Source of the DNA: Oscillospiraceae bacterium
GTDB taxonomy: Bacteria; Bacillota; Clostridia; Oscillospirales; Acutalibacteraceae
DNA: 64,000 nt
Assembly: GCA_022508805.1 (NCBI GenBank)
Contig: JAFLUM010000007.1
Location: 1-64,000, forward strand
Direction: 5' to 3'
Shown one piece after another: positions 20,033 through 38,881 of the stretch (positions are counted from its first letter, which is position 1; each line of letters opens with the position of its first letter). Under the pieces are notes generated by a model. It made no database searches, had not been told where the DNA came from, and worked only from the letters and a program-made list of their open reading frames with translations. Both the position numbers and the translations under genes were made by a program.

Positions 20033-21187
20033 TTATAAATATTTTTCAATTTCTTTCATACATTTATAATCTTCGCGCACCTCTATGTTTTTTTTGTTTT
20101 CAATCAGCGAGAAACTATATTCGCTGAAAGCTTCATAATATTTTACACAGGTGTCCCATTCCTCTTTTTGTGAAGGAGTAAGAGTGCTTTCTGAAATTCC
20201 GTAATTCTCCTGTATATATCTGCCGAAATATTCGGTAAACTTCCTCTGACCGTAAATATTTAAATGATCAAAATTGTAAAAATCCGTGTTAACGTCAAGA
20301 CCTGTGTCATCAAAATTTCTTTCAAAGTTGATGTAGTCATACCCGTATTCAGCAATAATATCGCCGATCGTATTGCCTCTGTAAAATCTTGTAAGTGATT
20401 TTTGAGTAACTATATGAGGAAATCTTACAAAAACAATATTATCTATGTTTTCGGATTTACAGTATTCAAGACACTCTCTGAGGTATTGCTCCGCTTTTTC
20501 GTTTAAATCATTTCTTTTATCATTGTCTTTCAAGCTGCTGTTATAAACTTTTCCCTTTTCCTTATATATAACCGCCTTGCATTTTGCACCTTTCAGATAA
20601 TTATATCCCCTCACGGTACTCTGTATAATTGATAAATTCCATTTAAGGCCTTTCGGGAAATCGTTCCATACAGAATGGTACTTTATAATCGGCAGATAAT
20701 ATTCAAGCTGATTTTCGGTTACACATTCTGAGATAAACTCAACCTTATCGGAATCAAGAGGAATATTATCAACATAATTTCTGAAATTTGCCTCTTTTTC
20801 AAGATCCTCATCTTTGATGTAAAGCGCTCCGTTTACCTCAACCACTATGAGCTTCGGATGCTGTTCTTTTATTGCAGATTTTATTTGTGTTTTAAAATTC
20901 TGAACTATATTCGACTGTGTAGAAATAGGATAGCTTGTAAAGCCGAATTTTTCATACGCATAGCAGGAAGAAAAGTCTGCATAAATCTCGCTGGCACCTA
21001 TCAAAACCACATCAACAGAATCCTTATCCTCCAGATAAAATCCTTTTATACGTTCTCTGTTATGGTCAGCGTGACAAAGTACATATTCTTGAAGTACTCC
21101 CACACATAATACAACGGCAAGCAAAAGCGACATTATTTTGATTGCCCGTATAATATAAATTTTCATTTTCATATGAATACTCCTCAA
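20033..21187 (-). CDS. SGNH/GDSL-like (DltD-like) membrane-anchored protein, partner of MBOAT
   Basis: N-terminal TM; VVLIGASEIYADFS (GxS block) and FDHLNIYGQRKFTEYF (DxxH block); overlaps the MBOAT gene. Confidence 0.7.
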   Translation of the reverse strand: MRSIHMKMKIYIIRAIKIMSLLLAVVLCVGVLQEYVLCHADHNRERIKGFYLEDKDSVDVVLIGASEIYADFSSCYAYEKFGFTSYPISTQSNIVQNFKTQIKSAIKEQHPKLIVVEVNGALYIKDEDLEKEANFRNYVDNIPLDSDKVEFISECVTENQLEYYLPIIKYHSVWNDFPKGLKWNLSIIQSTVRGYNYLKGAKCKAVIYKEKGKVYNSSLKDNDKRNDLNEKAEQYLRECLEYCKSENIDNIVFVRFPHIVTQKSLTRFYRGNTIGDIIAEYGYDYINFERNFDDTGLDVNTDFYNFDHLNIYGQRKFTEYFGRYIQENYGISESTLTPSQKEEWDTCVKYYEAFSEYSFSLIENKKNIEVREDYKCMKEIEKYL

Positions 21188-22806
21188 AACTGCATATACA
21201 CGAAATCGGACGCATTATATCCTGAGCCGTAAATGCCGAATACCACAAGTATCATTATGCCGACAAATATTACAAGCCATCTTAAAATGAAAGGCTTTTC
21301 ATCAAGCATCTCTCGGACCGTTGTTTTGTCATGACGTTCCTGAATAACGCTGATTATGAATATTAACACTGCTCCTGCAAGAACAAGCAAATAGTCCTTT
21401 TTGCCGAGCCCCAGCTCACTTATCTGTGCCCAGCCTGCGGAAAGGCTTTGGTTTGTAAAAAACAGCACAAAGGTATGCATTGCCTGCTTAAAGGACGGAG
21501 CAACGTCAAACACATAGCCCACAAGGACGACTAAAAATGTTCTTATGATCTGAAAAACAGTATAAGGTACAGTCTTTGGGTCAATGCGCAATTTGTTATG
21601 ACACCATTCAAATACGGGCTTCAAAAGGACAGACAGCATTATAATGCCGCCGTTCCAAACGCCAAAGCCTACATATTTCCAGTTTGCACCGTGCCATATA
21701 CCCACAATGAAGAACACGATAAACGATGCAACGCCTGTAGGCAGAACCTTTGCGATATGTGTGCCTGCTGCCGTTGAACCGAATTTTGAGTTTTTGATTT
21801 TTTTACTTGTATTGATAAACAGTGAGGACATTGCAAGCGGATAGAACAAATAGTTCTTGAACCAGTTGCCGAGGGAAATATGCCATCTGCGCCAGTATTC
21901 ATTGATATCCTTTGAAAAATACGGGCGTTTGAAGTTTTCCATCATATCTATGCCGAATATCTGTGCGACGCCTCTTGCAATATCAATGCCTCCTGAGAAA
22001 TCAGCATAAAGCTGAAGGGCATAAAGCAAAATTGTAAATGTAAGTGCCGTTCCGCCGTAGCTGTTATAATCCGCTGTGACGGTATTGATCGCAATTACCG
22101 CACGGTCGGCAATAAACATTTTCTTTATAAGTCCCCATAAAATAAGCTCCGCACCGTGCTTAAAGCGTGTAAAATCAAAGCTGTGAGGCTCGTACAGCTG
22201 ATGTGCAAGAGAATCGTAAATGCCTATAGGACCCTGTACAATTTGCGGGAAAAACGATACAAACAGCGCAAGCTTAAAAGGATTCCGCTGTGCAGGCGTT
22301 TTTCCCCTGTAAACATCTACAATGTATCCCATTGACTGGAAGGTATAGAATGAGATGCCGAGAGGCAGTAATAAATGCAAAGTCGGTGCTGAAAAGCCAA
22401 TGCCAAAGGCTCCGAAAATGTCATTAAGACTGCCTGCAAAAAAGTTATAATATTTCAAAAAGGCAAGAAGTCCGAAATTGAGCACAAGTGCCGATGACAT
22501 AACAAGCCTTTTTCTTGTTTTAATTTTCTCTTTGTATTCTTTCTTTTGTTCCCTGCTCCATTCTGCTTTATGCAGCTTAATATTCTCCTTTGAACGTACA
22601 GAAATTTTTTCTACCCATAAAGCAATAAGATATGTACTTAGCGTTGTAAACAGTATAAAAACTACATATTTATATCCCGCAAAAAGATAAAATATATAAC
22701 TTGCCGCAAGCAACACTGTCCACTTTTGTCTTTTAATTGGGAACAGAAAGTATACAAGCATTGTCGCAGTGACAAAAATCAAAAAGTTTAATGATGTATA
22801 ACTCAC
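21184..22806 (-). CDS. MBOAT family O-acyltransferase (DltB/AlgI-like)
   Basis: LPLGISFYTFQSMGYIVDVYRGK, FWRRWHISLGNWF-like (EYWRRWHISLGNWFKNYLFYPL), FFIVGIWHGANWKYVGFGVWNG. Confidence 0.95.
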   Translation of the reverse strand: MSYTSLNFLIFVTATMLVYFLFPIKRQKWTVLLAASYIFYLFAGYKYVVFILFTTLSTYLIALWVEKISVRSKENIKLHKAEWSREQKKEYKEKIKTRKRLVMSSALVLNFGLLAFLKYYNFFAGSLNDIFGAFGIGFSAPTLHLLLPLGISFYTFQSMGYIVDVYRGKTPAQRNPFKLALFVSFFPQIVQGPIGIYDSLAHQLYEPHSFDFTRFKHGAELILWGLIKKMFIADRAVIAINTVTADYNSYGGTALTFTILLYALQLYADFSGGIDIARGVAQIFGIDMMENFKRPYFSKDINEYWRRWHISLGNWFKNYLFYPLAMSSLFINTSKKIKNSKFGSTAAGTHIAKVLPTGVASFIVFFIVGIWHGANWKYVGFGVWNGGIIMLSVLLKPVFEWCHNKLRIDPKTVPYTVFQIIRTFLVVLVGYVFDVAPSFKQAMHTFVLFFTNQSLSAGWAQISELGLGKKDYLLVLAGAVLIFIISVIQERHDKTTVREMLDEKPFILRWLVIFVGIMILVVFGIYGSGYNASDFVYMQF

Positions 22807-22828
22807 AAAATCCCCTCCCCAGTTAAAA

Positions 22829-24004
22829 CTAAGGCGTATTAAATCGGTCAGTATAAATGAGATCGCGAAGGATTTCTAAACCTTCTGCTTTTGAATAAAG
22901 TGAAATAGCAGGTAATTCACGGCTTAAAAACACTGCCATGCCTTCCATTGCGGAATACGCCCCCGTGCGGCAGAATACAAGAGTATCTCCGATTTTAAGC
23001 GAATCAAATTCGGCATTTTTCGCAAGAATGTCCGCAGTTGTGCACAGGCTTCCGCATAATGTCCACTTTTCTGTACCGATCCCCGTATTTTTATTATCTT
23101 TTATATGAATGATCTTGGGTATCTGCATACCCTGAATTTGCCCGTCATATTTAAGCTGGTTAAGCCCTCCGTCGAGGATGGCATAGTTGATCTCGCAGTT
23201 GGTTTTAACGTCCATCACCCTTGTAAGATAATAGCCGCAGGGTGCCGCAAAGAACCTGCCCATTTCAACAGTCAGTTCAAATTTTTCTGCAACCTCCCTG
23301 ATTTTTTCGGAAACCGCCAAAAGACGTTCCCGTTCAAGCTCATCGGCATTATCCGCAAAATAGTCGACAGCAAGTCCCGTGCCGTATTCAATGCGCCTTG
23401 CCTCAAAGCCCGTCTCATTTTTAAGCCTGTCCGCAAAATCGGAAATATAATCGAGCTCTTTTTCGATAACGGCGGGTTTGCGCTTTTGTGTGCCCGTAAA
23501 ATAATGCAGACCTACAAATTCAATGCCTTTATACTCTTTTCTACGGTTTATGAGGTCAATTACATCCTTCTCATCCATACCGAACTGACTGCCGCCTGTT
23601 ACTCTGACAAGTACGGGAACGGTTATTCCTCTTTTCAATGCGCTGTTATTTATAAGCTCTGCATGAAGATAGCTTTCGGCAGTGAACGTTCCTACATTAT
23701 CATCCATAGCGCGCTCAACATCTTCAGCAGTCTTATTTACGCCTGAAAAAATGATTTTTGATGTATCAACACCTGTTTTTTCACAAATTGTAAGCTCTCC
23801 GGGACTGCAGACCTCAATTTTATCAAAAATATCCGGAAGCCTTTTTAATAAAAAGGAATTTGCTTTTATAGAAAAACAAATTCCCACTTTGCTTCCAAAA
23901 CTTTCTTTTACAAGCTCTGCACGTTTTGTAAACTCATCCGTATCAAAAATATACGACGGAGTTTTTACCTCTGAGAGAAGCTTTCTCAAAAGTTCTGTGT
24001 TCAT
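22829..24004 (-). CDS. Group III PLP-dependent decarboxylase (diaminopimelate/ornithine decarboxylase fold)
   Basis: MNTELLRKLLSEVKTPSYIFDTDEF; PLP Lys block FSIKANS; VELGRFF-like VEMGRFFAAPCGYYLTRVMDVK; CGSLCTTADILAKN; GAYSAMEG. Start moved from 24058 to ATG 24004. Confidence 0.85.
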   Translation of the reverse strand: MNTELLRKLLSEVKTPSYIFDTDEFTKRAELVKESFGSKVGICFSIKANSFLLKRLPDIFDKIEVCSPGELTICEKTGVDTSKIIFSGVNKTAEDVERAMDDNVGTFTAESYLHAELINNSALKRGITVPVLVRVTGGSQFGMDEKDVIDLINRRKEYKGIEFVGLHYFTGTQKRKPAVIEKELDYISDFADRLKNETGFEARRIEYGTGLAVDYFADNADELERERLLAVSEKIREVAEKFELTVEMGRFFAAPCGYYLTRVMDVKTNCEINYAILDGGLNQLKYDGQIQGMQIPKIIHIKDNKNTGIGTEKWTLCGSLCTTADILAKNAEFDSLKIGDTLVFCRTGAYSAMEGMAVFLSRELPAISLYSKAEGLEILRDLIYTDRFNTP

Positions 24005-24017
24005 ATAAAAGCCTCGA

Positions 24018-24245
24018 TTATTCGTCCTGAAGCTGTTCAATAAGATCCAGCATAGCATTTACGGAATTAAAGTTTTCAGGTACAAGATTGTTCGGTTTAA
24101 TTTCTATATCAAAGGCATCGTTAAGCTCACCAACAAGCGCAACAATGTCAAATGAATCAAGCACTCCGTCTGTAATAAGTGCGGTTTCATTTTCAAAATC
24201 CACATCAGGTCTTAATTCGTTTAAAATTTCCATTAATTCGTCCAT
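24018..24245 (-). CDS. Acyl/peptidyl carrier protein
   Basis: 75 aa; phosphopantetheine site motif GVLDSFDIVALV. Confidence 0.9.
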   Translation of the reverse strand: MDELMEILNELRPDVDFENETALITDGVLDSFDIVALVGELNDAFDIEIKPNNLVPENFNSVNAMLDLIEQLQDE

Positions 24246-24321
24246 ATTAAATTCTCCTTTTACTTTAATGTTTTATTTTTTTTACATTTTTTACGAAAGC
24301 ATCATAAAAAATGCTAAACAA

Positions 24322-25827
24322 CTATTTAAAATATGCTTTTAATGCCTGCATATCCTTTTTACCGTTTGGCAAAGTGGGAAGTTGTTCGAGCTGCACCAGT
24401 TTTCTCGGCGACATAAAGCCCGGAAGCACTTCTCTGAAATGCAAAACGATTTCTTTTGATGAAGCGCTGCCTGTGTAAAACAGATACAAATGCTCCTTTT
24501 CCTTATTATATAAAGCGCAGCAGTCAAAAACACCTTCGACCTGCTTTGCGGTTTCTTCAATTTCATCAAGCTCGATTCGGTGACCCATATGCTTTATCTG
24601 ACGGTCTTTTCTGCCGTGAAATTCCAGCAGTCCGTCCTTGTTATAGCTTCCCAAATCGCCTGTTTTATAGATAAGCTCACGGTAGTTTTTATTAAGCGGA
24701 TTTTGTATGAATGTCTCGGCAGTTTTTTCGGGATTACCGTAATATCCGAGAGCCAAAATCGGACCGCTTACACAAATTTCACCGATCTCACCGTTTTTTA
24801 CGGTTGTGCCGTCCTCATTCAGAAGTGTGACCGTATAGTTATCATACGGCACACCGATGGGCAGCACGGTATCATCTGAAACTTCTTTGTCTACCACGTA
24901 ATAAGTACAAGATGCGGTAGCTTCAGTGGGACCGTACTGGTTTACATACATAACATCAGGTAAATTCTGTTGCCATACCTTCAGATATTTACAGGGCATC
25001 ACTGAACCTGAAAAGCATACTTTTTTAAGATACTCCGGCTTTATGACATCAAATGCACCCAGCTTTGCAGGCAGTTCAATTCCCGCAACGCTCCAACATA
25101 ATGCCGTAACCCTGTTTTTGTTAAGTGTTTCAAAAAGCTTTACAGGCATCGAAAATTCGTTTTTAGGAATTATAACCGTTGTCGCACCTGTTTTTATGGG
25201 AAGATAAATGTCACGCACTGCTGCAATATAGTCAAGGGGTGACTGACTTCCGAAAACATCGCTTTCCGTTACCTTAAGAACACTGCACACAGCATCAATA
25301 TAGCACATTAACGAATGGTGTGAGGTTATAACACCCTTGGGAACTCCTGTTGAACCTGATGTGAAAATCACATAAAGCGGTGAAAGCTCGTTAAGAGCAG
25401 CTGTGGCTTTACAAAGAAGCTCTTCATTACACGGAGTATTGATAATATCTTCCATTACAATTATTTTTCCGCTGAAATCAAGCTCTTTTGCAATTTCAAG
25501 ATGCTCTTTATCAACGATCATACAATCCGCTTTTATTACATCTAAAATCTGATTGAGCCTTGCCTGAGGCATTGAAGCATCCATCGGCGCATAAAAGCAG
25601 CCTGCTCTGACAATTCCGAGAAAACAGGCGGGAGTATATATATGACGTCCCGACATAACTATTACAGGACTGTTCGAAGCAAGAAATGCTGCGAGGTAAG
25701 AACCGATTGCTTTTGTTATATTGTTGAATTCAGCAAAGCTGATACTCTGCTCTGAATCAGTAAAAATAATCTTCTCGGGATACTGCCGAGCTGTGATATC
25801 CAACCAATTTAATACCGACGTTTTCAA
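24322..25827 (-). CDS. AMP-binding amino acid adenylation enzyme (DltA-like)
   Basis: YVIFTSGSTGVPKGVITSHHSL, YVNQYGPTEATASCTYY, YKTGDLGSYNKDGLLEFHGRKDRQIKHMGHRIELDEIE, PNGKKD; likely TTG start at 25827 after AAGGGGG, ORF track start 25845. Confidence 0.92.
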   Translation of the reverse strand: MKTSVLNWLDITARQYPEKIIFTDSEQSISFAEFNNITKAIGSYLAAFLASNSPVIVMSGRHIYTPACFLGIVRAGCFYAPMDASMPQARLNQILDVIKADCMIVDKEHLEIAKELDFSGKIIVMEDIINTPCNEELLCKATAALNELSPLYVIFTSGSTGVPKGVITSHHSLMCYIDAVCSVLKVTESDVFGSQSPLDYIAAVRDIYLPIKTGATTVIIPKNEFSMPVKLFETLNKNRVTALCWSVAGIELPAKLGAFDVIKPEYLKKVCFSGSVMPCKYLKVWQQNLPDVMYVNQYGPTEATASCTYYVVDKEVSDDTVLPIGVPYDNYTVTLLNEDGTTVKNGEIGEICVSGPILALGYYGNPEKTAETFIQNPLNKNYRELIYKTGDLGSYNKDGLLEFHGRKDRQIKHMGHRIELDEIEETAKQVEGVFDCCALYNKEKEHLYLFYTGSASSKEIVLHFREVLPGFMSPRKLVQLEQLPTLPNGKKDMQALKAYFK

Positions 25828-26042
25828 GATACAGCCCCCTTGCATTTTTTACAAACAAACTGCATAAACCGTGACGATCAATGATCAAGTTCGTCCGAAC
25901 TCCTACCGAGATCAACTGTGCTATCTATGACATTACAGTTTGCAAAATATATAATACTACTTTTTTATTGTTTGTCAACAGTATTTTTTTATTTTTTATA
26001 AAGTTTAAAAAAATCTTAAATAAGTTTTTTCGTCCGACATAC

Positions 26043-26091: not shown

Positions 26092-26691
26092 TTATTCACT
26101 TCTTCTGCGCTTACAGTACAGGATCATGCAATACACTGCAGCTATCGTGAGAATCGCGGTACCGGCAGCTAAATAAGATGTTACGCCGATTCCGCCGCTT
26201 TCGGGAAGCTCATAGACGGGCGGTTCCCCCTTTAAAACGTTCCTTACGACGATGACCTTACCGCCTGAGCCCTCAGAATCAGAAGAATTTCTGGCACGGT
26301 TTATGTCGTTTACAGCGTAAAAGTCAGCATAACCTTCGGCAACATCTTTCTCAACAACAAAGTAGATGTATTCATCGGCGCCTGCCTCAGCAAGCAAATC
26401 CTTCAAGTTATATGACCAACCGTTTTCATCGTTCAATGTTATCGTCACGGAAAAGTCCGGATCGATCTCATATCCCTCAGGCAGGTCGGATGCACTCGGT
26501 ACGATTTTTATCTGCGAGGAGGAGCCGGATTCGGGCTCCGAGGTGTCGTCAGAATCAGTATCCTCTACCTCCTCGGTAGCGGCGACGGTCGTGTCCAAAT
26601 TTTCATCATCGGTGTAGGTTTCGGCGCTCGCGGTGACAGCTAAGGAAAGCAACAGAGTCACTGTAAGCAGTAGACCAAGTAATTTTTTCAT
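26092..26691 (-). CDS. Secreted surface protein with LPESGG-type sorting signal
   Basis: Signal peptide; C-term YELPESGGIGVTSYLAAGTAILTIAAVYCMILYCKRRRSE. Confidence 0.75.
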   Translation of the reverse strand: MKKLLGLLLTVTLLLSLAVTASAETYTDDENLDTTVAATEEVEDTDSDDTSEPESGSSSQIKIVPSASDLPEGYEIDPDFSVTITLNDENGWSYNLKDLLAEAGADEYIYFVVEKDVAEGYADFYAVNDINRARNSSDSEGSGGKVIVVRNVLKGEPPVYELPESGGIGVTSYLAAGTAILTIAAVYCMILYCKRRRSE

Positions 26692-26703
26692 ACTGCTTCC
26701 TCC

Positions 26704-27450
26704 TTATCGTAAGTTCAACGTGCCGGTTTCTTCATCTACTACAACGTTTCTGCCCCAGGCACTAAGGATAGCAGCCTCGGCATTGTTCTCCTGAACGGCA
26801 TCTACGTGAACTTCTATGCGAAATTGTGCACCGTTGTAGGCTGCCTTTTCTTTGCGGCAGGCACTGCTGATAGTCACTTTATCGGCAAACAATGGTGTCT
26901 CATCTCCGGAGTTTAAGAGACGGTTGTAATACAAAACAGTACGTTCCGATGTACTGGCATTTGTATCTATTATCCAAGCACTGTCAAGATTGGTAAGGTG
27001 CAAATCAATATACGACGAATCCAGATCTAATAGCTTCGCATTATCCGGATCTTTTGCGAATTTATCCGGATCGACCCAGTATTTATAAACGGAGACTCGG
27101 ACATACTGGTTGATTGATCCGCTGTTGCGGACATTTAATTCCTCTTGATAGGTTTTTCCTAAGGCAAGCTGCTCGCCTTTAGGAATCATATTGCTGAGAA
27201 GAACTCCGGGAATATTTGCATCCCATTTGCCGTCGTCGACGGAGCCGTAGTCACGCCAGGAAACTCTTTCGCCGTTTTCCAGCAGGGAGACGCCGATATC
27301 AAACATTTGTACCCGGGAGTTATATGTCTCGAAGATATACATCGCCGCACTGGCCGCACCGATAGTGGCACACAGTATCAGCACTACCACCATAATGAAT
27401 GCTGCAAGGTTTGTTCTCGGAGAAAGAAGAATATTTTTCAGTTTTTTCAT
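26704..27450 (-). CDS. TasA/CalY-like secreted protein (probable SipW-type substrate)
   Basis: MKKLKNILLSPRTNLAAFIMVVVLILCATIGAASAAMYIFETYNSRVQMFDIGVSLLENGERV; ELNVRNSGSINQYVRVSVYKYW; ATG at 27450. Confidence 0.6.
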   Translation of the reverse strand: MKKLKNILLSPRTNLAAFIMVVVLILCATIGAASAAMYIFETYNSRVQMFDIGVSLLENGERVSWRDYGSVDDGKWDANIPGVLLSNMIPKGEQLALGKTYQEELNVRNSGSINQYVRVSVYKYWVDPDKFAKDPDNAKLLDLDSSYIDLHLTNLDSAWIIDTNASTSERTVLYYNRLLNSGDETPLFADKVTISSACRKEKAAYNGAQFRIEVHVDAVQENNAEAAILSAWGRNVVVDEETGTLNLR

Positions 27451-27454
27451 CTTT

Positions 27455-27961
27455 TTATTCTCCTTCCAGCGTCGAATTCCAATCGGCATAAGGGTTACCG
27501 TTCTCGTCATATGCTACCGGGGTGGTTTCGTAGATAACTACCACATTGAAGTGATCGCCTATATCCACATCAGCGGGAATGTCTTCAATTCTGACCCGCA
27601 GCTCAGTCGTATTCTCGCCGCCATTGAGGATCCTGTCGTAGTACCAATATCCGTCTTCACCCGCGGTCCAGTCATCGCCGGCATAACTCAGAGAATATTC
27701 GCTGCCCGAGAAAGCTCTGGCACGGACAAAGACCGGCTGACCGTCGGGATCGTTGGTGATTGTCACACGCTTAGTCCAATCAGAGAACTCCTCCTTAATG
27801 TCCTGACCGCCGCCTGTGATAACATAGCCGCCACCCAGATGGAGAGTATATCCGCCTGATGCTTCGGCATAGGTGGTGAAGTAGGCAAGTGCACTGTTTA
27901 TGGAGGTTGCAAAGATCAGTGCGATCGACAAAACAAACAGAAAAATACTTTTCTTTTTCAT
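27455..27961 (-). CDS. Small TasA-like fibre subunit candidate (168 aa) with SipW-type signal peptide
   Basis: SINSALAYFTTYAEASGGYTLHLGGG at the signal peptide junction; VTITNDPDGQPVFVRARAF...YWYYDRILNGGENTTELRV. Confidence 0.65.
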   Translation of the reverse strand: MKKKSIFLFVLSIALIFATSINSALAYFTTYAEASGGYTLHLGGGYVITGGGQDIKEEFSDWTKRVTITNDPDGQPVFVRARAFSGSEYSLSYAGDDWTAGEDGYWYYDRILNGGENTTELRVRIEDIPADVDIGDHFNVVVIYETTPVAYDENGNPYADWNSTLEGE

Positions 27962-27975
27962 CTTCGCTCCCTCCT

Positions 27976-28989
27976 TTACGAATTATGCGGATTCGGTGTC
28001 CACGTCCAACCGTCTGACGTATACTCAAAATGGTTGGTAATTCCGCCGCCACTGTTGATTTTATCGTTGGGTGCGTTGGTGAATTCGACGGAAACAATTT
28101 CATCTGCCGTAATCATAGTCGTTTGATTCTTTTCGCTTATCAATCTGTAGCAGACACCCTCATAGACCTCAGTGACTGTGACCTGTGCACCTACAGGAAT
28201 GTTATCCACCGTCACTTTGTTTGTACCTGCTTGGTTGAATGTGATGGAAACAACATCGCTGTATACGATTTTACCGTCGAATACGGCTTCTATATCGAAA
28301 ACAAAGGTTGCCGGGGATCCACTAACAAATCCAATCAGATTCTTGACAATCTGCAATGAACCGAGCCTTGTTTGCTGTTCAGCTTTGAGAGTTATGGCGG
28401 TATCGTAAATCCAATCACCGCTAATACCTTCTCTTCCGGGAAGGGACAGCAGGATCGGAGCGAAACGGTAGGTATGGGAAGAAGTTGAAGCGATTGTGCT
28501 TATGATCTTATTCCCGTCCTTATCTTTACCTTCGGAAACATAGTTCTCTACACCTGCTCCGTGAACAAGAACCAAATACAAGCCTGTACTCAAATTTTTA
28601 ACAGGAGTTTCGATTGAGACACCGCTAATGGCGGGACTGTCGTTAGCCAAAGCACGGTCAGCTGCCTTTTGAGCCAAATCAGTCCATCCGCTGTTGTCTT
28701 GAATGCCGTTCAAAACAAGACCGCTGTAAGCAGGGTAGGGATCACTGTAAGCATAACTGTCATAGGAACTGTCAGCTACTGCATCGGCAACTTTATAGAA
28801 ATCTGCCACCAAATCTGCTTCCTCTATATCAGCATACTCTGACTTACCGCTGAGATTGACAGTTAAGGTGCACGAACGACCTACATCGACTGCATTGGCA
28901 GTGACAGATACCGCTGCGACCATCAGTGCAAATACCGTCAGCAACGCGGTCAGGCGCTTATATATATGTTTCATAGGCACATCCTCCAT
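27976..28989 (-). CDS. Pilus-locus surface protein with DUF5979/Cna-B-like domain, paralogous to N-terminus of the 37076..38881 protein
   Basis: Signal peptide; NLSTGLYLVLVHGAG; TYRFAPILLSLPGREGISGDWIYDTAITLK; VDNIPVGAQVTVTEVYEG. Confidence 0.7.
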   Translation of the reverse strand: MEDVPMKHIYKRLTALLTVFALMVAAVSVTANAVDVGRSCTLTVNLSGKSEYADIEEADLVADFYKVADAVADSSYDSYAYSDPYPAYSGLVLNGIQDNSGWTDLAQKAADRALANDSPAISGVSIETPVKNLSTGLYLVLVHGAGVENYVSEGKDKDGNKIISTIASTSSHTYRFAPILLSLPGREGISGDWIYDTAITLKAEQQTRLGSLQIVKNLIGFVSGSPATFVFDIEAVFDGKIVYSDVVSITFNQAGTNKVTVDNIPVGAQVTVTEVYEGVCYRLISEKNQTTMITADEIVSVEFTNAPNDKINSGGGITNHFEYTSDGWTWTPNPHNS

Positions 28990-29002
28990 TCATGTAAAGG
29001 GC

Positions 29003-29998
29003 CTAAGATTTCTTTAAATCGTCCAAAATTTCGTCATAAGACATTTTGGGTTTACGCTTGCGGCTGGCAATCAGCAGGATAACCAGCAGGATAAACAGCA
29101 GCGGGATGCCGACGCCGAACATAGCGTAAAAAGTTGGCAGCTTATTGGCCTCGGCCACCACTTTGATGTCACCGTCGGACAAATTTTCAATTCTCACGCC
29201 GCGCACCAGCATACGGTGAGTGTTAACTCCGTAGGGAGTGCAGGTGATAAGAGTACAGTAGTCTGCCCCCTCCTCGATCTCCAGATCGTCCACCTCATAG
29301 GGGAAAACGATGCGGATCTGATCGACCATATAGGTGACGGTCTGGTCAAAAACCGTGATGGTAAAAACATCACCCTCGCGCATACGGTCCAAATCTGTAA
29401 ACAGACGGGCGGACGGCAGACCACGGTGACCGGAAAGAGCAGCGTGGGTACTCTCGCCGCCGATCGGCAGTGAGCTCCCCTCCAAATGACCGACCGCCGA
29501 CTGAAGAACGGACTCCGCAGTCGTGTGGTAGATCGGCAAATTCACGCTGATAGCGGGGATCTGTATGTAGCCCATTATACCGGTGCCGGTGATGTCCAAA
29601 ATACTTCTGTACTCTGCCATCTCCGCATCGGACAGGGTATGGCTGGTTCCTACTTTAGCAAGGCGCTCATTGTAGGCTCTTGCAGCCTCCAACATCAGCG
29701 CACGCTCCTTGACCGTCAAATCCTCCACAGCTTCTGTGTAGCTTGCGATCGCCTGTGTGGCGTGCATACTGTTCCACCAATTACTGAAGGTGGGATACAG
29801 CAGGATGCCCGTGCCTACCAAAACCAAAGCAAACAGCAGCAAGGTTGAAAAAAGCCCTCCGTGCTTTTTCTTTTTTGGCTTTTTTACGGGTTCTTCTATC
29901 TGCGAACGTGTTTCCTCTGCTTCTGAATATTTTTCCTCATTCATAGGTTGCTCCATGTGAGAAATCGTTGATTCTTTTTGCCAGCGTTTGCCAGACAA
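29003..29998 (-). CDS. Class C (pilus) sortase
   Basis: Two TM segments; IMGYIQIPAISVNLPIYHTT, HAALSGHRGLPSARLFTDLDRM, CTLITCTPYGVNTHRMLVRG. Confidence 0.95.
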   Translation of the reverse strand: MSGKRWQKESTISHMEQPMNEEKYSEAEETRSQIEEPVKKPKKKKHGGLFSTLLLFALVLVGTGILLYPTFSNWWNSMHATQAIASYTEAVEDLTVKERALMLEAARAYNERLAKVGTSHTLSDAEMAEYRSILDITGTGIMGYIQIPAISVNLPIYHTTAESVLQSAVGHLEGSSLPIGGESTHAALSGHRGLPSARLFTDLDRMREGDVFTITVFDQTVTYMVDQIRIVFPYEVDDLEIEEGADYCTLITCTPYGVNTHRMLVRGVRIENLSDGDIKVVAEANKLPTFYAMFGVGIPLLFILLVILLIASRKRKPKMSYDEILDDLKKS

Positions 29999-30129
29999 AA
30001 GCTTTTGTCTGTTGCTCGCCGCACACCACGGGAAGGTGCTGACTTGTGCGGCAACTCCGGAGACGGAAGAAATGCCCGTCCCCGGAGGAAATTTAATTTT
30101 GCAGGAAAAATCCTATGTATTTATTAGGA

Positions 30130-31665
30130 TCAGTCTACATTCTTTATGCGACGCTTGGTGATCAGCAGAACACCTGCGACGAGAACCATCAAACCACCGA
30201 CAATATAGAAGAGTGTGGTGCCGATGCCGCCGGTCTCGGGAAGAGTAGCGCCTGTGTTGTTTTCTACATCAGTAGAAAGTGATTTTCCGACAATCTTGAA
30301 GTCTTCAGTTTCAGCAAGAGTCGTTCCGTCTGCAGTATGCTCAGCAGAAACCTCGAAATAGATAGGCTGTGCGAGCTTGTTGTAGCCCTCGGGAGCCTTA
30401 GTCTCAGTCAGTCTGTAATAACCGTCGTCAAGACCTGTGAACTGGAACTTATCGCCTGCTGTACCCTCTACCTGATCAACGGCAACCCAAGCACCGGTCT
30501 TGCCTTCGTACTCTTCAGAGCCTGCACCCTCAACAAACTTCTCTAATGTGAATTCAGCACCGGTAATCGGAGCTTTGCTGTTAGCATCAACCTTGTTTAC
30601 GGTTACATCATAGGTGAAAACAACAACCTTCTTCTTCTCGGTTGTGCCTGTGGGCGGCTCGTCGGGCTCATCACCGGGCTCGCCGCTGCCGTCAGATGTG
30701 TAGTTGGGGTTGTTGGAGAACTCAAGGTATACTTCGTTGTCCTGACCGGGGTTGTAGATTATTGCAGTATCAAGAAGCTCTGCTGTGTATGTAACAACAA
30801 CGCCCTTAGTAGCATCATAACCTGCTTTGTCCTTAACGGAGTTGATAACAGAGATAAGATCCTTGATAACAACTTCGAAGGAGCAACCGTCATCAGTATC
30901 GGTAACGATTTCATAGCCTGTTGTGATCTCAATACCGCCAACGGTTACTTTGAAATCTTTAGCTGTGCCAAAGGTGTCATCCATCGTATCATGGAATGCA
31001 TAGTAGTAGGTCTTGTAGCCGGTAGTATCGGGGATAGTACCTGTAAGTCTGAACTCTACATCGTCGCCGATATCGTAGTCAGCGGATTTGCCCCAAGTGC
31101 CGTTTGCGCTGTCAACTGAATCGTTGTAATCGAGAACGTCCTTCTCAACATCGGGGTAATCGATCTTGGCAGTAACCTCAACGTCTGTTACAACAGCAAG
31201 AATGTAACGGCTGTTTGCGTCGTGAGCGCCGGAAAGCTCGGTTTCGTCAACAACAAGATAGTAACCTGCCGGTAAATCTGCCTTGTAAGTTCCGTTCGGG
31301 CTCTCGGTAAGTGCTGTACCGCCGCTTACAAACTTTGCAGCAGTTGCAGCAAAGTCGATCAATGCAGCAGTATCGCAGTTGCCGATATAAGCAGCAAGGG
31401 CTGCGGCATCTGCAATTTTAAGAGCAGCAGCAAGTCCGGAACCGTCAACGTCTTTACCGTAAGCGGGATCACCTAAGCTCTTTGATCCTGTTCCGGTAAC
31501 GGTACCTTTAAGAATCTGATAAGCCTTAAAGGTGTGACCGGTTGAGTCGCTCGTGATCGTGATGCTGTAGCTGTCATCAGCAAATGCCAATACTGCCATG
31601 CTAAGCAACATAACTGCCGCTACCACAATTGCGAGCACTTTTTTCATTGTGTTCATGTTTTTCAT
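30130..31665 (-). CDS. LPETG-anchored fimbrial backbone-like pilin with Cna-B/SpaA domains
   Basis: Signal peptide; KIDYPDVEKDVLDYNDS pilin-motif region; VNKVDANSKAPITGAEFTLEKF; LPETGGIGTTLFYIVGGLMVLVAGVLLITKRR. Confidence 0.92.
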   Translation of the reverse strand: MKNMNTMKKVLAIVVAAVMLLSMAVLAFADDSYSITITSDSTGHTFKAYQILKGTVTGTGSKSLGDPAYGKDVDGSGLAAALKIADAAALAAYIGNCDTAALIDFAATAAKFVSGGTALTESPNGTYKADLPAGYYLVVDETELSGAHDANSRYILAVVTDVEVTAKIDYPDVEKDVLDYNDSVDSANGTWGKSADYDIGDDVEFRLTGTIPDTTGYKTYYYAFHDTMDDTFGTAKDFKVTVGGIEITTGYEIVTDTDDGCSFEVVIKDLISVINSVKDKAGYDATKGVVVTYTAELLDTAIIYNPGQDNEVYLEFSNNPNYTSDGSGEPGDEPDEPPTGTTEKKKVVVFTYDVTVNKVDANSKAPITGAEFTLEKFVEGAGSEEYEGKTGAWVAVDQVEGTAGDKFQFTGLDDGYYRLTETKAPEGYNKLAQPIYFEVSAEHTADGTTLAETEDFKIVGKSLSTDVENNTGATLPETGGIGTTLFYIVGGLMVLVAGVLLITKRRIKNVD

Positions 31666-32156
31666 CCTTTCAATGAATAATATACTTGTTTATGCAATGG
31701 AAGATTGTCACCGTTTCCGGTTTCTACCGCCCGTTGTATACAATAAATATAGGACACAAGTTGAAAATCCATCCTGCTTATCGGCGATGCCGCTATAAGG
31801 AGCATCAACTCTTCCCCAAATTTTCTTGGATTATATCACCGTCAAAATGTGTTTGCAATACCATTTCCCCATTGTTTAAAATCATTTAACAAATTATTCA
31901 AATTTAGCGTGTTAAAGCGTCATATTTTCAATTTTATAACCGCTTTTTTCTCAAATAATTGTATAAATTAGCGAAAAATCTTAATAAATATACATTTTTT
32001 TTGCAAAATTCTATTTCTGAATCAGCGATTTTGTAACATTTTTTTGAACATTTTATGTATTCGGTTGACTTTTTAATACATTTGCAGTACTATTCGGTAA
32101 ATACAATTTTAAATATTGTTAAATAGGTATTATTTTGAGATAAAGAGGGCATTGAA

Positions 32157-34937
32157 GTGGAAGTTTCTGTATTCAAGATGATCGAAAATTTCATACAGGA
32201 GAAGAAAATCAAGCACACATGGCTGATCATATTCCTGTGTATGGCTTTGGTCGTCGCTCTGACGACGGCGGGGGCATTGAAACTGACCGGTATTGCTCAG
32301 ACCAGAACGCTGACGGTGCTCAACTGCCCTGCGGAGATCCACGAGCACGTGGACGGCTGCTATGACATCGGAGAAAACCTTAGCTGCGGTTACGCGGACT
32401 TTGTGGTACATACACACAGCCTTGACTGCTATTTCGATGACGTGCTGACCTGCGAGCTTCCTGTGATCGAGGCCCATGAGCACACCGAGGATTGCTATTC
32501 CCAAGAGGAGTATTTGATCTGCGGTCAAACTCAGTCGAAGGAATCGGACGGCGAGGATCACATCCATACGGATGAGTGCTATGAAACGCGCGAGACGCTG
32601 AGCTGCGACAAAGAGGATATCCTCCTGCATACCCACACCGCCGAGTGCTTCAAAGAAGCAGTGTTCGACGAGAACGGTACAATGATCTCACTCACTTCAC
32701 AGCTTCCTGAGGATGTGACAGTCCCTGATACATGGACACGTGATATGGTTCCCGCTTGCGGTCATCTCCAAATCGAGGAGCATATCCACGGTGCAGGCTG
32801 CCTGGATACCGTCAAGTTCACACCCGAAGAGGCAGAGGCTTATACAGACTCCATGGGCGATGACGAAACACAGACAGATACTGACAGTAATTGGAACGGT
32901 ACATTGGAAGGCATGGGCCGCAAGGACATCGGCAACGACGACGGCACTAAGACCGTCGTGGAGCAGCTCACATGGTCCGCGACCATAAACTTCCCGAACG
33001 ATGATACTTGGACGGATTTCATATACACTGACAGCTTCCGTCAGACGATGACCGGTTGGGTCTTACAGGAAAACGGCGAAAAGACTTGGGAAGAGGACCA
33101 TCTCATTCACCACTATCGGACACTCAGCCGACTTGACAAAGAACTGAATGACTCCTTGAGCTTTTGGCTTGCACAGTCCGATTTGGAAAATGATCTCACC
33201 TATACATTTATATACAAGGATCAGGATGGAAACGAGGTCACCGACGACAGTGCGGAAGTTATCTACTTTGAGATTCATTTCAAGCGCGAGGCAGGTAAAA
33301 ACCTGCACGGACAGTCGATCAACATCGACTATACCTCGCTCGTTGATACAGAAGACTTTGTAAACAATACCAATTATAATATTGATAACGACTTTACGCT
33401 GCCGGAATTCACTGGCACGGGAAATTTCTGTTTCCGATACACTGACCACATCTCCAACGAGACTGAAACCGGCGATATCAGCGTACAAAATGTTTGGCTG
33501 AACGTTGAGGGCGACCCGCAGACCGATAACCTACCCGACAATGTGGAAATGGTCTTGAAGCAGTACGCCTTCAAGGGCGGCATCTACCTCACCGAAAAAC
33601 CGGAAGATACGAAGAATTGGTGCGAACTCACCTTGCGTATAGAACAAGGTTCAGAAGATAATCAACACGACGTGTGGATCAAGACACTGGACGAAGAGAT
33701 CTTAGGTGAAAAAACAGCTACCGTTTGGATCCCGAGGAATTCACAGGTTCAGCTCAGCGCAGATGACCGAGCTTCAACGTGGAACTACACATTCAACGTG
33801 AAGAATGTATCAGCCTATGAGTTGACCATCCCCGTTGATACAAACATTAACAGTATATTCCTGAGTGTAATCGGCAAAGCTCCTACCGGCTTTATCCCCA
33901 CCGGTGATTTCACCAAGTACGGCGGCACGATTACGCTGAACGGTGATGACGACGATTGGAGCCATACATGGGAACAGCTGCCGTTGGATGACGGCAATGA
34001 CACCCGATATGTATATACGGTTGAACAAGAAGAAGTGCCCGACGGTTACTATACTAATGTCGAAAACGACGGCGAAGGCACCTTCACCGTAACCAACCGA
34101 AAGAGTATGGAGCCCGGCAAAATCACCGTAGAAAAGATATGGGTCGATGATGAGGGATATCCGCTGGCTATTCACCCCGACTCCGTTGAGATTGAGCTGC
34201 AGAAGAGGTCTTCTGCGGATGATGAATGGGACACGGTCGAAAACGGCAGAATAACATTGCCGAATGATAAAGGCGAATGGACGGCAAGCTGGACAGGTTT
34301 GGAAGACGGCGAATACCGCGTTGTAGAGAAAAAGATAGATGGCTATTTAGTCAGCTACGCTTACAGCACCTACGACGACCAAGGTAACAGGCATACAAGC
34401 TCGACAAGTCTTTCCGGAAATGCAGGCTTTGCCACCGTAGTCAACGTAAAGACTCTCGCCGACGACGGCGACATCGTTGTGGTGAAGGTTTGGGAGTATG
34501 AGGACGGTACACCTGATACCAGCCACCCCGGTTCGGTCGATATAGTCATAAAACGTGCAAGGATGTCACCCCCCGAGGAGAGTGAGCCTTCCTCTGAGCC
34601 TGAGACAGATTTGTCTGAGCCGAATACTTCCGAGACGGTTACTTCCGTAACGGATTCTTCCGAGCCGAATACTTCTGAGACAGTTACTTCCGTAACAGAT
34701 ACTTCTGAGACGGTTACCTCCGGAACGGATACCCCCGAGATGTCTACTTCTAAAACAGACACTTCGAGCAATAGTAGCATTTTCGACAGAATCCCGAATA
34801 CCGATGACAACTCAAAGCTGATTCCGTATATCATTGCTGCAGTGATCAGCGGCATTTTGTTCGTGACATTTGCCTGTGCGGCCTCAAAAGCCGGTCGCCG
34901 TAAGAAAAAAACAACCGAGGACAACATAGATGAATAA
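32157..34937 (+). CDS. Large Cna-B-type surface protein with N-terminal HxHxxxC repeats and C-terminal TM anchor
   Basis: Signal/TM N-term; six HxHxxxC motifs; Cna-B repeats KITVEKIWVDDEGYPLAIHPDSVEIELQK; Ser/Thr/Glu-rich stalk; C-term TM plus RRKKK. Confidence 0.85.
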   Translation: MEVSVFKMIENFIQEKKIKHTWLIIFLCMALVVALTTAGALKLTGIAQTRTLTVLNCPAEIHEHVDGCYDIGENLSCGYADFVVHTHSLDCYFDDVLTCELPVIEAHEHTEDCYSQEEYLICGQTQSKESDGEDHIHTDECYETRETLSCDKEDILLHTHTAECFKEAVFDENGTMISLTSQLPEDVTVPDTWTRDMVPACGHLQIEEHIHGAGCLDTVKFTPEEAEAYTDSMGDDETQTDTDSNWNGTLEGMGRKDIGNDDGTKTVVEQLTWSATINFPNDDTWTDFIYTDSFRQTMTGWVLQENGEKTWEEDHLIHHYRTLSRLDKELNDSLSFWLAQSDLENDLTYTFIYKDQDGNEVTDDSAEVIYFEIHFKREAGKNLHGQSINIDYTSLVDTEDFVNNTNYNIDNDFTLPEFTGTGNFCFRYTDHISNETETGDISVQNVWLNVEGDPQTDNLPDNVEMVLKQYAFKGGIYLTEKPEDTKNWCELTLRIEQGSEDNQHDVWIKTLDEEILGEKTATVWIPRNSQVQLSADDRASTWNYTFNVKNVSAYELTIPVDTNINSIFLSVIGKAPTGFIPTGDFTKYGGTITLNGDDDDWSHTWEQLPLDDGNDTRYVYTVEQEEVPDGYYTNVENDGEGTFTVTNRKSMEPGKITVEKIWVDDEGYPLAIHPDSVEIELQKRSSADDEWDTVENGRITLPNDKGEWTASWTGLEDGEYRVVEKKIDGYLVSYAYSTYDDQGNRHTSSTSLSGNAGFATVVNVKTLADDGDIVVVKVWEYEDGTPDTSHPGSVDIVIKRARMSPPEESEPSSEPETDLSEPNTSETVTSVTDSSEPNTSETVTSVTDTSETVTSGTDTPEMSTSKTDTSSNSSIFDRIPNTDDNSKLIPYIIAAVISGILFVTFACAASKAGRRKKKTTEDNIDE

Positions 34938-35448
34938 ACGTCATAAGGGCGGAAAGCTTCTTTCCGCCCTATGCAACCTATTAGGAACTCTCATACTGTT
35001 GGCAATAATTGCCAGTTGTTTACTGATCGTCGTGCCGCAGTTCAAGGACTATCATGTCTATCACGTTGTCAGCGGCAGTATGACACCGGAGATTCCGATC
35101 GGCAGCATTGTCTATGTACAGTCCACCGCGCCGGAGGACATTCAGACCGATGATATCATCGCTTTTAGGTCCGGTGACAGCGTCATCACCCATAGGGTCG
35201 TGACCAATCATCTGGTCGAGGGAGAATTCACCACCAAAGGCGACGCAAATGAAGTCGAAGACGCAAACCGTGTAGATTACGATGAGCTTATCGGCAAAGT
35301 TGTCCGCCACTACCCTTACTTGGGTGAGCTGTTGGTGGTCTATTCTACCAAGATTGGTAAAATCTACATCATTCTCTTTGCTGCCTGCGGAGCCATGTTG
35401 AACATTCTGGCAAGCCGTATACGCGCACGTTGCAAAGAACAGGAATAA
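34930..35448 (+). CDS. sipW: SipW-like (ER-type, S26B) signal peptidase
   Basis: YHVVSGSMTPEIPIGSIVYVQ; DDIIAFRSGDSVITHRVV (His in place of Lys). Confidence 0.85.
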   Translation: MNKRHKGGKLLSALCNLLGTLILLAIIASCLLIVVPQFKDYHVYHVVSGSMTPEIPIGSIVYVQSTAPEDIQTDDIIAFRSGDSVITHRVVTNHLVEGEFTTKGDANEVEDANRVDYDELIGKVVRHYPYLGELLVVYSTKIGKIYIILFAACGAMLNILASRIRARCKEQE

Positions 35449-35564
35449 AACTGTAAAGGGTTGTGGCAAAATATGCATTTCGCTGCAACCCACTTGTCTT
35501 GAAAAACTGCGTATGGGGACGGACACCTGTCCACCGATACGCATGGGAAATGAGGTTACAATAT

Positions 35565-36338
35565 ATGACCGAAAAAGAATTGCGTAAACTAAAGCGGAGC
35601 GATTATCTCCAGTTGCTCCTCACCCAAGGAAAAGATATGTCTGCAGTGCAAACCCGTCTTGATGAGACGACGGAGGAGATTGGACAACTGCAGGCTGCTA
35701 ACGAACACCTGAAAGCCAAACTGAACGAGAAAGACGAACAGATCGAAAAGCTCAAAGAACGTTTGGACGACAAGGATGCCACAATCAGTGCGCTTCGCCG
35801 AGAAATCGAGGAGATGAAGACCAGCCGAAGGATCGAGCTGGAGGAATTCGGCTCTATTGCCATGGCATCACTGAGTCTCAACGGTGTCTTTGAAGCGGCG
35901 CAGGAAGCGGCAGATCAGTATCTATACAATATTCGCGTCATACACGATGAACTGATGGCCAAACGCCAGGCGGAAAAAGCAAAGCAGGAAAATTTGAAAA
36001 AAGCCATACAGACGGCGCATCCGGCACCGCAGCCTCTCCAACCGGAAGCATATTCGATGCCGCAGGCACTTCAACAGGAAGCGTATCCCATGCCGCAGGC
36101 ACCCAAGCCTGAAGCGTATCCCATACCGCAGGCACCTAAGCCTGAAGCGTATCCCATACCGCAGGCGCCTAAGCCTGAAACCTATCCCATGCCGCAGGTG
36201 TCCAAACCTGAAGCGTATCCTATACCACAGGCGCCCAAGCCTGAAACCTATCCTATACCGCAGGCACCCAAGCCTGAAGCATATCCGACACAAAGAATCG
36301 GGTTGTTTGACAGATTGTTCGGGCGCGGCACACGATAA
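35565..36338 (+). CDS. Coiled-coil protein with C-terminal (K/Q)PEAYPIPQAP repeats
   Basis: MTEKELRKLKRSDYLQLLLTQGKDMSAVQTRLDETTEEIGQL; start at 35565 with upstream GAGG, ORF track start 35463. Confidence 0.75.
   Translation: MTEKELRKLKRSDYLQLLLTQGKDMSAVQTRLDETTEEIGQLQAANEHLKAKLNEKDEQIEKLKERLDDKDATISALRREIEEMKTSRRIELEEFGSIAMASLSLNGVFEAAQEAADQYLYNIRVIHDELMAKRQAEKAKQENLKKAIQTAHPAPQPLQPEAYSMPQALQQEAYPMPQAPKPEAYPIPQAPKPEAYPIPQAPKPETYPMPQVSKPEAYPIPQAPKPETYPIPQAPKPEAYPTQRIGLFDRLFGRGTR
36039..36290 (+). repeat. 33-bp tandem repeats (about 7.5 copies) encoding KPEAYPIPQAP
   Basis: aagcctgaagcgtatcccataccgcaggcacct and near copies. Confidence 0.9.
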
Positions 36339-36366
36339 ACTTGTTGCACAGGGAGGATAAACCTGT

Positions 36367-36954
36367 ATGAGCAAAAAAGAAAATACTTTAGAGTTGCCAA
36401 GCCTTGATCAGCTTGCCGAGGAGCTTGAGCGAGAACAGTATAGAACGAACTACAGACGAGTGCTGAGAAGCACGCTGTTTTCCCTCCTAACGGTAGCGGC
36501 TGTGGCGGTTTTGGTTGCAGTGCTGTTGCTACCGATCCTGCAAATCACAGGCTCGTCCATGACAAACACTCTGCAAGACGGCGATATTGTTGTGGCGTTC
36601 AGCGGCTCGTCCTATAAAACGGGAGATGTCATCGCGTTTTACTACAACAACGAGATATTGGTCAAGCGAGTCATTGCCACGGCCGGTGACTGGGTCAATA
36701 TTGACGACGAAGGCAATGTTTTTGTAAATGACAAGCCTTTGGATGAGCCTTACATCACCGATAAATCCTTGGGACAGTGTAATATTGAGATGCCTTACCA
36801 GGTACCCGACGGTCGCTGTTTTATCATGGGCGATCACCGCTCCACCAGTATTGACAGCCGTAACACAGCCGTAGGCTGCATAAGCAACGATATGGTCGTC
36901 GGTAAGATCTTTATACGTATCTGGCCCTTTGAAGAAATCTCTGTGATCGAGTGA
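36367..36954 (+). CDS. lepB: Signal peptidase I (bacterial Ser/Lys type)
   Basis: ITGSSMTNTLQDGDIVVAF, LVKRVIATAGDWVNIDDEGNVFVN, GRCFIMGDHRSTSIDSRN. Confidence 0.93.
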   Translation: MSKKENTLELPSLDQLAEELEREQYRTNYRRVLRSTLFSLLTVAAVAVLVAVLLLPILQITGSSMTNTLQDGDIVVAFSGSSYKTGDVIAFYYNNEILVKRVIATAGDWVNIDDEGNVFVNDKPLDEPYITDKSLGQCNIEMPYQVPDGRCFIMGDHRSTSIDSRNTAVGCISNDMVVGKIFIRIWPFEEISVIE

Positions 36955-37033
36955 TCGGACTAAACGAAATAAAGCCTGACGAGGAAATTCTTCACTTCCG
37001 TTCCATGGGCGGAACTCCCCCACATTACCACAA

Positions 37034-37064
37034 AAAAAGACCACACAACAGTGTGGTCTTTATT
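37034..37064. terminator. Bidirectional terminator between convergent genes
   Basis: AAAGACCACAC aacaGTGTGGTCTTT. Confidence 0.75.
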
Positions 37065-37075
37065 ATTTGTCATAA

Positions 37076-38881
37076 TTAGGCTTGTCGGCGACGCCTTTTG
37101 ATTCCCGGTAACAGGAGCAGTGCGATTGCTATCATTCCGCCGCCGATAACGGTGAACAGCGTTGTGCCGATACCGCCTGTCTCCGGCAGAAGTACGCCGG
37201 GATTGTCGGGAGGAGTTGGCTCGTCGGGCTTGTTTTTAATGGTTATTCCGTTTTCAGAGTCGCTGTCTTTATAGTCCCAACTGTAGTTGCATTGCTCCAC
37301 AATGCGTGCAGTTCCTGTAGCTCTCAGGTCACCGTCCGATCCACCCAATTCTATCTGATATCCGCCTTTCGCTTCCGCCATCGGCCGGATCATCCCTTCA
37401 TTCGAATTCAAGCTCATCTCGCTGACCCCATTGCTCTGCGGATCCCAATTCCAATCCGCATTGCGGGGGTCGATGGGATTACCTTCACCATCGTACTGCG
37501 CCGGTATGAAATTATAGACGATCGCTAAACGTCCCGCGCGAGGAAGAGAATACCCGTCGATGTCGGTGAGTTCCGTACCCGTGGCCATAACAAGCAGAGA
37601 ATCCGCCGTCTCACCCGGGTTGAGGATCTCATTATAGTAGTAATAGCCATCGTCCGAATCATAAGTCCAGCTGTCGCCGTTATATATTGCCTCAAAGTCT
37701 CCGAGACTTTCTCCGTTTATGTAACCTTCGTAGCTGTCATATGCCTTGACTCTGACACAGACAGGCTGAGCTTCTGTTGCATTTGAAAGAGTCACCTCAT
37801 TCAAATCCCCGCTCGTCTGCCTATCAAAGGTCACACCGCCGGTACCGTTGGGATGCTCATTATCATAGCGCAAATGCGTTTCAAGAACTCCGGGTTGGTT
37901 CATCCAGCTTACATAGTCGTTAGGAACCTCCATGCCATAGGCATAGAAAAAGTGCGGATTCGAATCAAGCACATAGCCTGCAGGCGCCTTCGTCTCTACC
38001 CAAGCATAGAGTGTATTGTCGTCAAGGAGCGGCGCATCGAGCACAATGTCGCCGTTTTTGTCGGTGGTATAAGTGCCCACGCAGTACAGGGTGACGAAGC
38101 CTTCCCCTTCAACATAGGCAGTAATTGTATCATCCGAGGGGTAGCCGTCCACAAAACGGGTGGCATAGAGTTTGAACTCAGCATCGGGCAGTCTTAATCC
38201 TGTCTCGCCCTCCTTGTGAAGGATGATCTTCTTTTGCGAGTGGGCATTTCTGTCCACCTTCAAGCTGATTGTCTTATGGTAAATCCAATTGCCGTCGTTT
38301 GCCGTTACGGTATCATCGCCGCCCTCGTTGGTAGGCAGGGTTACCAAAACCGGCGAGAAAACATATTCGTAATTTACATATGTCACGGCAGAGGCATAAA
38401 ACGATTCGCCGGTATCCTCATCTTTAATTTCTTTGACATATGCTCTGTCCTGATCTACTCCGCGAGCGACTACCAGATACAGACCTGCCTCAAGATCCTC
38501 GATCGGCGTATTCAGTGGAAGACCTGATTGGAAATCTCCCATATATCCGTCATCCGTAGCTATCAGCAACGCCTTCTGAGCGAGAGCTTTCGTGTCAACT
38601 TTACCGCCTTCAGTGCCCAGATCATCAGCCAGCGCCGTAAAAGCGGGCTGAACATCAAAGGTTAGCCCATCTTGAAGATAGGCAACACGGTAGATATCGA
38701 TCGCAAAATTATTCACCAACTCCGCGGTAACGTCCGGATCGTCACTGAGGTGAGCTGTCACCGTGAGACTGCAAAGGCTATTCAGATCCGGCGCAGAGGC
38801 AGCACTTCCGATGCCAACAAGCGGTATCACCAGCAGACACACGGTCAACAGCGCCGCTATGCGTTTCCACAGTCCTTTCAA
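37076..38881 (-). CDS. LPETG-anchored surface protein with Cna-B/SpaA domain and TasA-like module
   Basis: Signal peptide; EGETGLRLPDAEFKLYATRF; VTLSNATEAQPVCVRVKAYDS...YYYYNEILNPGETADSLLV similar to 27455..27961; LPETGGIGTTLFTVIGGGMIAIALLLLPGIKRRRR. Confidence 0.88.
   Translation of the reverse strand: MKGLWKRIAALLTVCLLVIPLVGIGSAASAPDLNSLCSLTVTAHLSDDPDVTAELVNNFAIDIYRVAYLQDGLTFDVQPAFTALADDLGTEGGKVDTKALAQKALLIATDDGYMGDFQSGLPLNTPIEDLEAGLYLVVARGVDQDRAYVKEIKDEDTGESFYASAVTYVNYEYVFSPVLVTLPTNEGGDDTVTANDGNWIYHKTISLKVDRNAHSQKKIILHKEGETGLRLPDAEFKLYATRFVDGYPSDDTITAYVEGEGFVTLYCVGTYTTDKNGDIVLDAPLLDDNTLYAWVETKAPAGYVLDSNPHFFYAYGMEVPNDYVSWMNQPGVLETHLRYDNEHPNGTGGVTFDRQTSGDLNEVTLSNATEAQPVCVRVKAYDSYEGYINGESLGDFEAIYNGDSWTYDSDDGYYYYNEILNPGETADSLLVMATGTELTDIDGYSLPRAGRLAIVYNFIPAQYDGEGNPIDPRNADWNWDPQSNGVSEMSLNSNEGMIRPMAEAKGGYQIELGGSDGDLRATGTARIVEQCNYSWDYKDSDSENGITIKNKPDEPTPPDNPGVLLPETGGIGTTLFTVIGGGMIAIALLLLPGIKRRRRQA

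Follow-up and report, generated by a model that had tools for sequence, protein, structure and literature searches.

Sortase pili and fibres built from SipW-processed subunits are usually studied apart. We analyzed a 64,000-base stretch of an Oscillospiraceae genome (contig JAFLUM010000007.1, positions 1 to 64,000; hereafter the window) containing a locus, with genes named A to K, in which components of both kinds lie together. Like the described sortase pili of the SpaA/FimA/EbpC type, this locus encodes a class C sortase, a major pilin with LPETG and isopeptide domains, ancillary LPXTG proteins and a nearby signal peptidase I. The W-x8-K spacing observed in two of its products, D and K, also resembles the pilin motif WxxxVxVYPK (PMC3485203). 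However, the operon adds to this set two SipW-type substrates (B and C) and a SipW-type peptidase (H), and in D the pilin-motif lysine occurs without a sorting signal.

In the case of the tapA-sipW-tasA operon of B. subtilis, the common features are a SipW-type peptidase with two substrates, a conserved mature N-terminus of the substrate, and a distant profile similarity of B to TasA and the camelysins. TasA fibres are formed by donor-strand exchange, the first strand being donated by TapA (PMC9674648, PMC10151520). This operon includes neither sortase nor pilin, whereas B and C fail to match the TasA family PF12389 and a fold search with them did not give TasA. The sipW-bsaABCRSD biofilm operon of Clostridium perfringens also combines a SipW-type peptidase with substrates of the BsaA superfamily, and a sortase gene, srtB, adjoins sipW-bsaABC (PMC7395162). 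The preliminary description of our locus, according to which sortase pili and TasA fibres are normally described as separate systems, was slightly overstated if taken to hold always; yet SrtB is dispensable in C. perfringens, since deletion of srtB left the BsaA polymers unchanged (PMC7395162). The C. perfringens operon further differs in holding the regulators bsaRS, whereas here a class C pilus sortase, a pilin and D stand in fixed order with the substrates. Finally, the archaeal threads of Sulfolobus unite donor strands and inter-subunit isopeptide bonds in one filament (PMC9715654), but this filament is made of a single, different protein and involves no sortase. None of these known systems holds a class C sortase, a pilin and a SipW-substrate set in one operon, and searches of open-access papers (SipW with sortase; sortases of class C together with a signal peptidase in Lachnospiraceae) did not uncover any account of such an operon.

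Conserved linkage of sortase and SipW-type genes

The window is part of a 118,673-base contig in a genome of 1.96 Mb (99% complete), whose nearest named relative within the same family is Acutalibacter sp. 1XD8-36. Two divergent units, F-E-D-C-B-A on the minus strand and G-H-I-J on the plus strand, are separated by an AT-rich spacer of 490 bases, and K forms a separate unit on the minus strand. A perfect hairpin of 11 pairs, located between J and K (37036..37061), is terminator-like on both strands and has a T-rich tail facing K. Every gene listed in the preliminary description (an LPETG pilin, a class C sortase, a SipW-like peptidase, a signal peptidase I, two substrates, two LPxxG proteins and a His/Cys Cna-B protein) was recovered in its place; D and I, which also belong to the locus, were absent from that list.

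The class C sortase E (29003..29998, minus strand) matched NF033745 with 270.6 bits (E-value 1e-80, cut-off 160) and carries the catalytic TLxTCTPYGVNxHR motif (TLITCTPYGVNTHR). The product of F (30130..31665, minus strand) is a SpaH/EbpB-like major pilin with a K2N isopeptide domain, a SpaA domain and an LPETG signal. It obtained 93.4 bits against the SpaH/EbpB-type major pilin family NF033902 (cut-off 95), and its component domains TIGR04226, SpaA and Gram_pos_anchor each exceeded their own cut-offs. H (34930..35448, plus strand) is a signal peptidase of the SipW/ER type with a Ser...His active site (SGSM...THRV), matching TIGR02228 with 93.1 bits (cut-off 51.85). Both motifs are conserved in the Acutalibacter homologue, which is 55% identical, and the score of H against the Bacillus SipW equivalog NF046067 was 70.5 bits, below the cut-off of 190. 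J (36367..36954, plus strand) is an ordinary bacterial signal peptidase I of the Ser-Lys type (TIGR02227, 119.4 bits, cut-off 47).

The remaining members of the two units are A, a secreted protein of 199 aa with an AxA signal peptide and an LPESG sorting signal (26092..26691, minus strand); G, a large surface protein with two Cna_B stretches and a sorting-like end, IPNTDD followed by a transmembrane (TM) segment (32157..34937, plus strand); and I, a coiled-coil protein with proline-rich repeats at its C-terminus (35463..36338, plus strand). Near the N-terminus of G, as in its Acutalibacter homologue, six HxHxxxC repeats were observed in a region that no Pfam or NCBIfam family covers and that is possibly a metal-binding region.

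We collected related loci with B and C as probes (B for most, C for the rest) and compared each open reading frame (ORF) with the proteins of the window and of Acutalibacter. The presence of B and C in these loci is thus a matter of construction, which does not hold for E, D and H. Twenty further loci were obtained (21 including the window) from Acutalibacter, Lachnospiraceae, a Clostridiaceae metagenome-assembled genome and other Clostridia; some of them are not independent, since L062 and L072 belong to a single bin and L063 is closely related to L064. A common order, sortase(E)-D-C-B-X2/A-(X1)-SipW(H), recurred throughout, usually together with G, I, J and F; the X2 position is that of an anchored companion protein and is filled in the window by A. 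D, C and B were adjacent in 21 of 21 loci (three cassettes in genome G723 being counted as a single locus), a class C sortase adjoined D in 19 of the 20 loci that could be judged (L074, cut by a contig end, was left out), and a SipW-type peptidase was present within the locus in 20 of 20 (leaving out L077, a contig of 2.9 kb).

Conservation of the other members was more variable: roughly half of the loci contained a G homologue, with several more being cut by contig or locus ends, a close homologue of A was seen only in genome G423, and the N-terminus of I is conserved in the operons. Downstream of H in four loci (L034, L063, L069 and L070), genes similar to the E and/or F components of type II/IV secretion (PF00437, PF00482) were noted with small ORFs between them; these were not seen in the window. 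In G723 (L090/L091, C14:122000-160000), a SipW-type peptidase has a long C-terminal extension (431 aa).

The distribution of the system is patchy, a strong match to C being detected in 7 of 396 genomes of the order, which could point to an accidental neighbourhood or an annotation artefact. However, one gene order is shared by 21 loci from several families and three D-C-B-X2 cassettes surround one sortase pair in G723. These observations rule out chance, to which we assign a negligible probability. The comparison of neighbourhoods thus supports the earlier proposal of a genuine and meaningful linkage: the E-D-C-B-X2/A-X1-H block extends across families and its D-C-B-X2 core has been triplicated in one genome.

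The same genome carries, at C28:83510-87650 (L129), about 20 kb past the window, a conventional class C sortase pilus locus consisting of an F-like pilin, a sortase, an LPNTG protein and a second sortase-like gene. Because no SipW-type genes accompany it, sortase pili in this genome do not need the SipW-type module, and this second locus is a useful internal control for the first. Two further SipW-type peptidases, both above the family cut-off, are encoded elsewhere in the genome, so H need not be the sole enzyme acting on B and C.

The SipW-type substrates and the pilin-like protein D

Genes C (27455..27961, minus strand) and B (26704..27450, minus strand) are tightly packed. The conserved start of B is an inner ATG at 27450, whereas the ORF list had 27510. 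C is a small protein of 168 aa (SALAYFTTY...). The only curated family matched by either protein was TIGR04090 (BsaA, SipW-dependent biofilm matrix protein), with scores of 23.8 bits (E-value 3e-5) for B and 14.1 bits (E-value 0.03) for C, both below the 60-bit cut-off. Their homologues matched it in 10 of 10 cases for B (best 4.7e-8) and in 12 of 12 for C (best 4.7e-10). Profile-profile alignment (hhalign) with BsaA-type proteins gave 98.2% for C (E-value 3.8e-14) and 98.0% for B (E-value 1.9e-13), whereas the unrelated protein D, used as a control, gave 49.6% and 26.3%. B and C were also related to each other (93.7%). Against TasA and the camelysins, hhalign gave 96.2% for B and 73% for C, the latter near the control level. 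PF12389 (TasA/camelysin) had no match in this genome and none among the B homologues, and PDB sequence profile searches with B and C did not return TasA. As judged from these profiles, B and C can safely be placed in the BsaA/SipW-substrate superfamily, with only a distant relation to TasA. A direct assignment to TasA was rejected, since Pfam, PDB sequence profiles and Foldseek all failed to give it; the term 'TasA-like' used in the preliminary description is thus valid at the level of the superfamily (profile-profile 98%) but not by PF12389 or fold search.

AlphaFold2 (AF2) predicted a confident beta-rich body for residues 53-164 of C, leaving its N-terminus unplaced, and a fair, beta-rich model for B (predicted local distance difference test, pLDDT, 76). 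Although unplaced in the monomer model, the mature N-terminus of C (24-36) is among its most conserved regions, which fits the expectation for a donor strand. B and C could alternatively be secreted assembly factors that help or cap the F pilus, as TapA or CapP do for TasA, with H serving only to mature them. The small size of C and its strand-like N-terminus, which could be donated once, would suit such a role, and TapA itself works by N-terminus donation (PMC10151520). However, BsaA, a member of the same superfamily, forms polymers (PMC7395162), and two related substrates encoded next to each other in all loci look like a pair of subunits. We therefore regard a purely auxiliary role for B and C as improbable.

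D (27976..28974, minus strand) contains the motif W-I-Y-D-x-x-[IV]-x-L-K, in which the lysine is placed exactly as in WxxxVxVYPK. This motif is followed by a DUF5979/Cna-B-like domain with the candidate isopeptide residues K211, E269 and N300; these three residues, together with W188 and K197, are invariant in 13 of 13 homologues. D thus looks, from its sequence, like the front part of a pilin. No conserved sorting signal was present among these 13 homologues, which sets D apart from sortase pilin subunits, and the D family had no match in a PDB profile search. According to known sortase chemistry, a protein having the pilin-motif lysine without a sorting signal could serve as an acceptor for the LPXT end of F yet not be passed on.

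Protein K and the proposed D-C joint

The first half of K (37076..38881, minus strand) is D-like (33% identity, E-value 6e-21) and has its own W199...K208. It is followed by a SpaA domain and by a C-like domain (348-478) homologous to the body of C (E-value 6e-9). A copy of the C-type strand is found at about 501-514, after the C-like body rather than before it, and LPETG then ends the protein. When the tail of K (AEAKGGYQIELGG) was aligned with the mature N-terminal strand of C (AEASGGYTLHLGG), the score was above those of all 2000 shuffles. A homologue of 628 aa with the same architecture and 43% identity is encoded on another contig in G423. The fusion of parts of two neighbours in one protein is classical evidence for joint working. 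As K fuses D-like and C-like parts, it indicates that D and C work together, and it is the best evidence for a coupling of both systems and for a wall-anchored SipW-type domain.

This result bears on the possibility that the operon encodes two co-regulated but unjoined fibres, one of them a sortase pilus (F, E, G and perhaps A/X2) and the other SipW-processed (C, B and H). In agreement with it, B and C have no sorting signals, the BsaA polymers of C. perfringens do not depend on the sortase encoded nearby (PMC7395162), and the genes are distributed between the divergent units G-H-I-J and F-E-D-C-B-A, with K as a third. On the other hand, D is flanked by E and C in virtually every locus, D-C-B-X2 stay together as a cassette, and the fusion in K brings D-like and C-like parts into a single chain. 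Taken together, these observations make two independent fibres rather unlikely.

The preliminary description had also proposed a covalently anchored TasA-like matrix. An anchored SipW-type domain does exist, in K only, where a C-like domain is combined with LPETG and a lysine spaced as in the pilin motif. By contrast, a matrix in which sortase links B and C into a covalent polymer is largely refuted for these two proteins and seems very unlikely to us: the aligned homologues of B and C all lack an LPXTG-type sorting signal, which prevents these proteins from serving as sortase donors, and K is rare.

We propose that H matures C and B, which would then assemble non-covalently, probably in the manner of TasA, each subunit inserting its conserved N-terminal strand into the following one. 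The sortase E would polymerize the pilin F, and D would take the end of the F chain, thereby terminating or capping it. Binding of D and C to each other would create a D-C joint at which the SipW-type assembly meets the covalent pilus. K may provide an equivalent joint in a single chain, fixed to the cell wall via LPETG, that replaces or supplements the D-C joint in this species, and the C-type strand at its end could complete the C-like domain either of K itself or of a C subunit.

Several observations weigh against this proposal. In G404 (L079), the D-C-B-X2-X1-H block occurs without E, F and G alongside, the sortase being on another contig. Foldseek searches with the AF2 models of B and C gave no significant match, and TasA was not among the top 50. 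Conservation of the N-terminus of C may reflect recognition by SipW rather than a donor strand. The strand copy was not recognizable, or not significant, in the tail of the G423 homologue of K. K itself was found in only 2 of 396 genomes of the order; it was therefore rejected as a general component of the system, and the fused joint with it. We infer the D-C contact, the formation of C/B fibres, strand exchange and the use of D by sortase.

The coupling of the sortase pilus with the SipW-type system is well supported by two features evident in the sequences, the conserved linkage and the K fusion, and its physical mechanism would be as proposed above. We see about an even chance that the locus encodes one conserved surface-fibre system rather than two neighbouring ones, operating by the full mechanism including the D-C joint. 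More tentatively, the product may be a composite filament, in which a donor-strand-type polymer of SipW-processed subunits is joined to a covalent sortase pilus via a D-C adaptor and, in certain species, anchored to the wall by K, which carries its own displaced donor strand.

Surroundings and significance of the locus

A dlt-like cluster occupies positions 20033-25845 of the window on the minus strand. It comprises an AMP-binding ligase (24322-25845), a carrier-protein-like ORF with a DSF motif (24018-24245), a pyridoxal phosphate (PLP) amino-acid decarboxylase (22829-24058), an MBOAT-like ORF (21184-22806) and a secreted partner (20033-21187). The decarboxylase next to these dlt-type genes suggests that a decarboxylated amino acid is transferred instead of D-alanine. 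On the other side, 8 kb from the locus, a surface protein of 1830 aa (46939-52431) has VWA and DUF7601/DUF7619 matches and ends with FPNVGG and a TM segment, a non-canonical sorting-like end.

A conserved operon containing both systems, together with a fusion protein that spans them, provides a concrete test of a hybrid fibre in gut Clostridia. The same operon also allows one to test how fibres of the SipW type can be attached to the cell wall.

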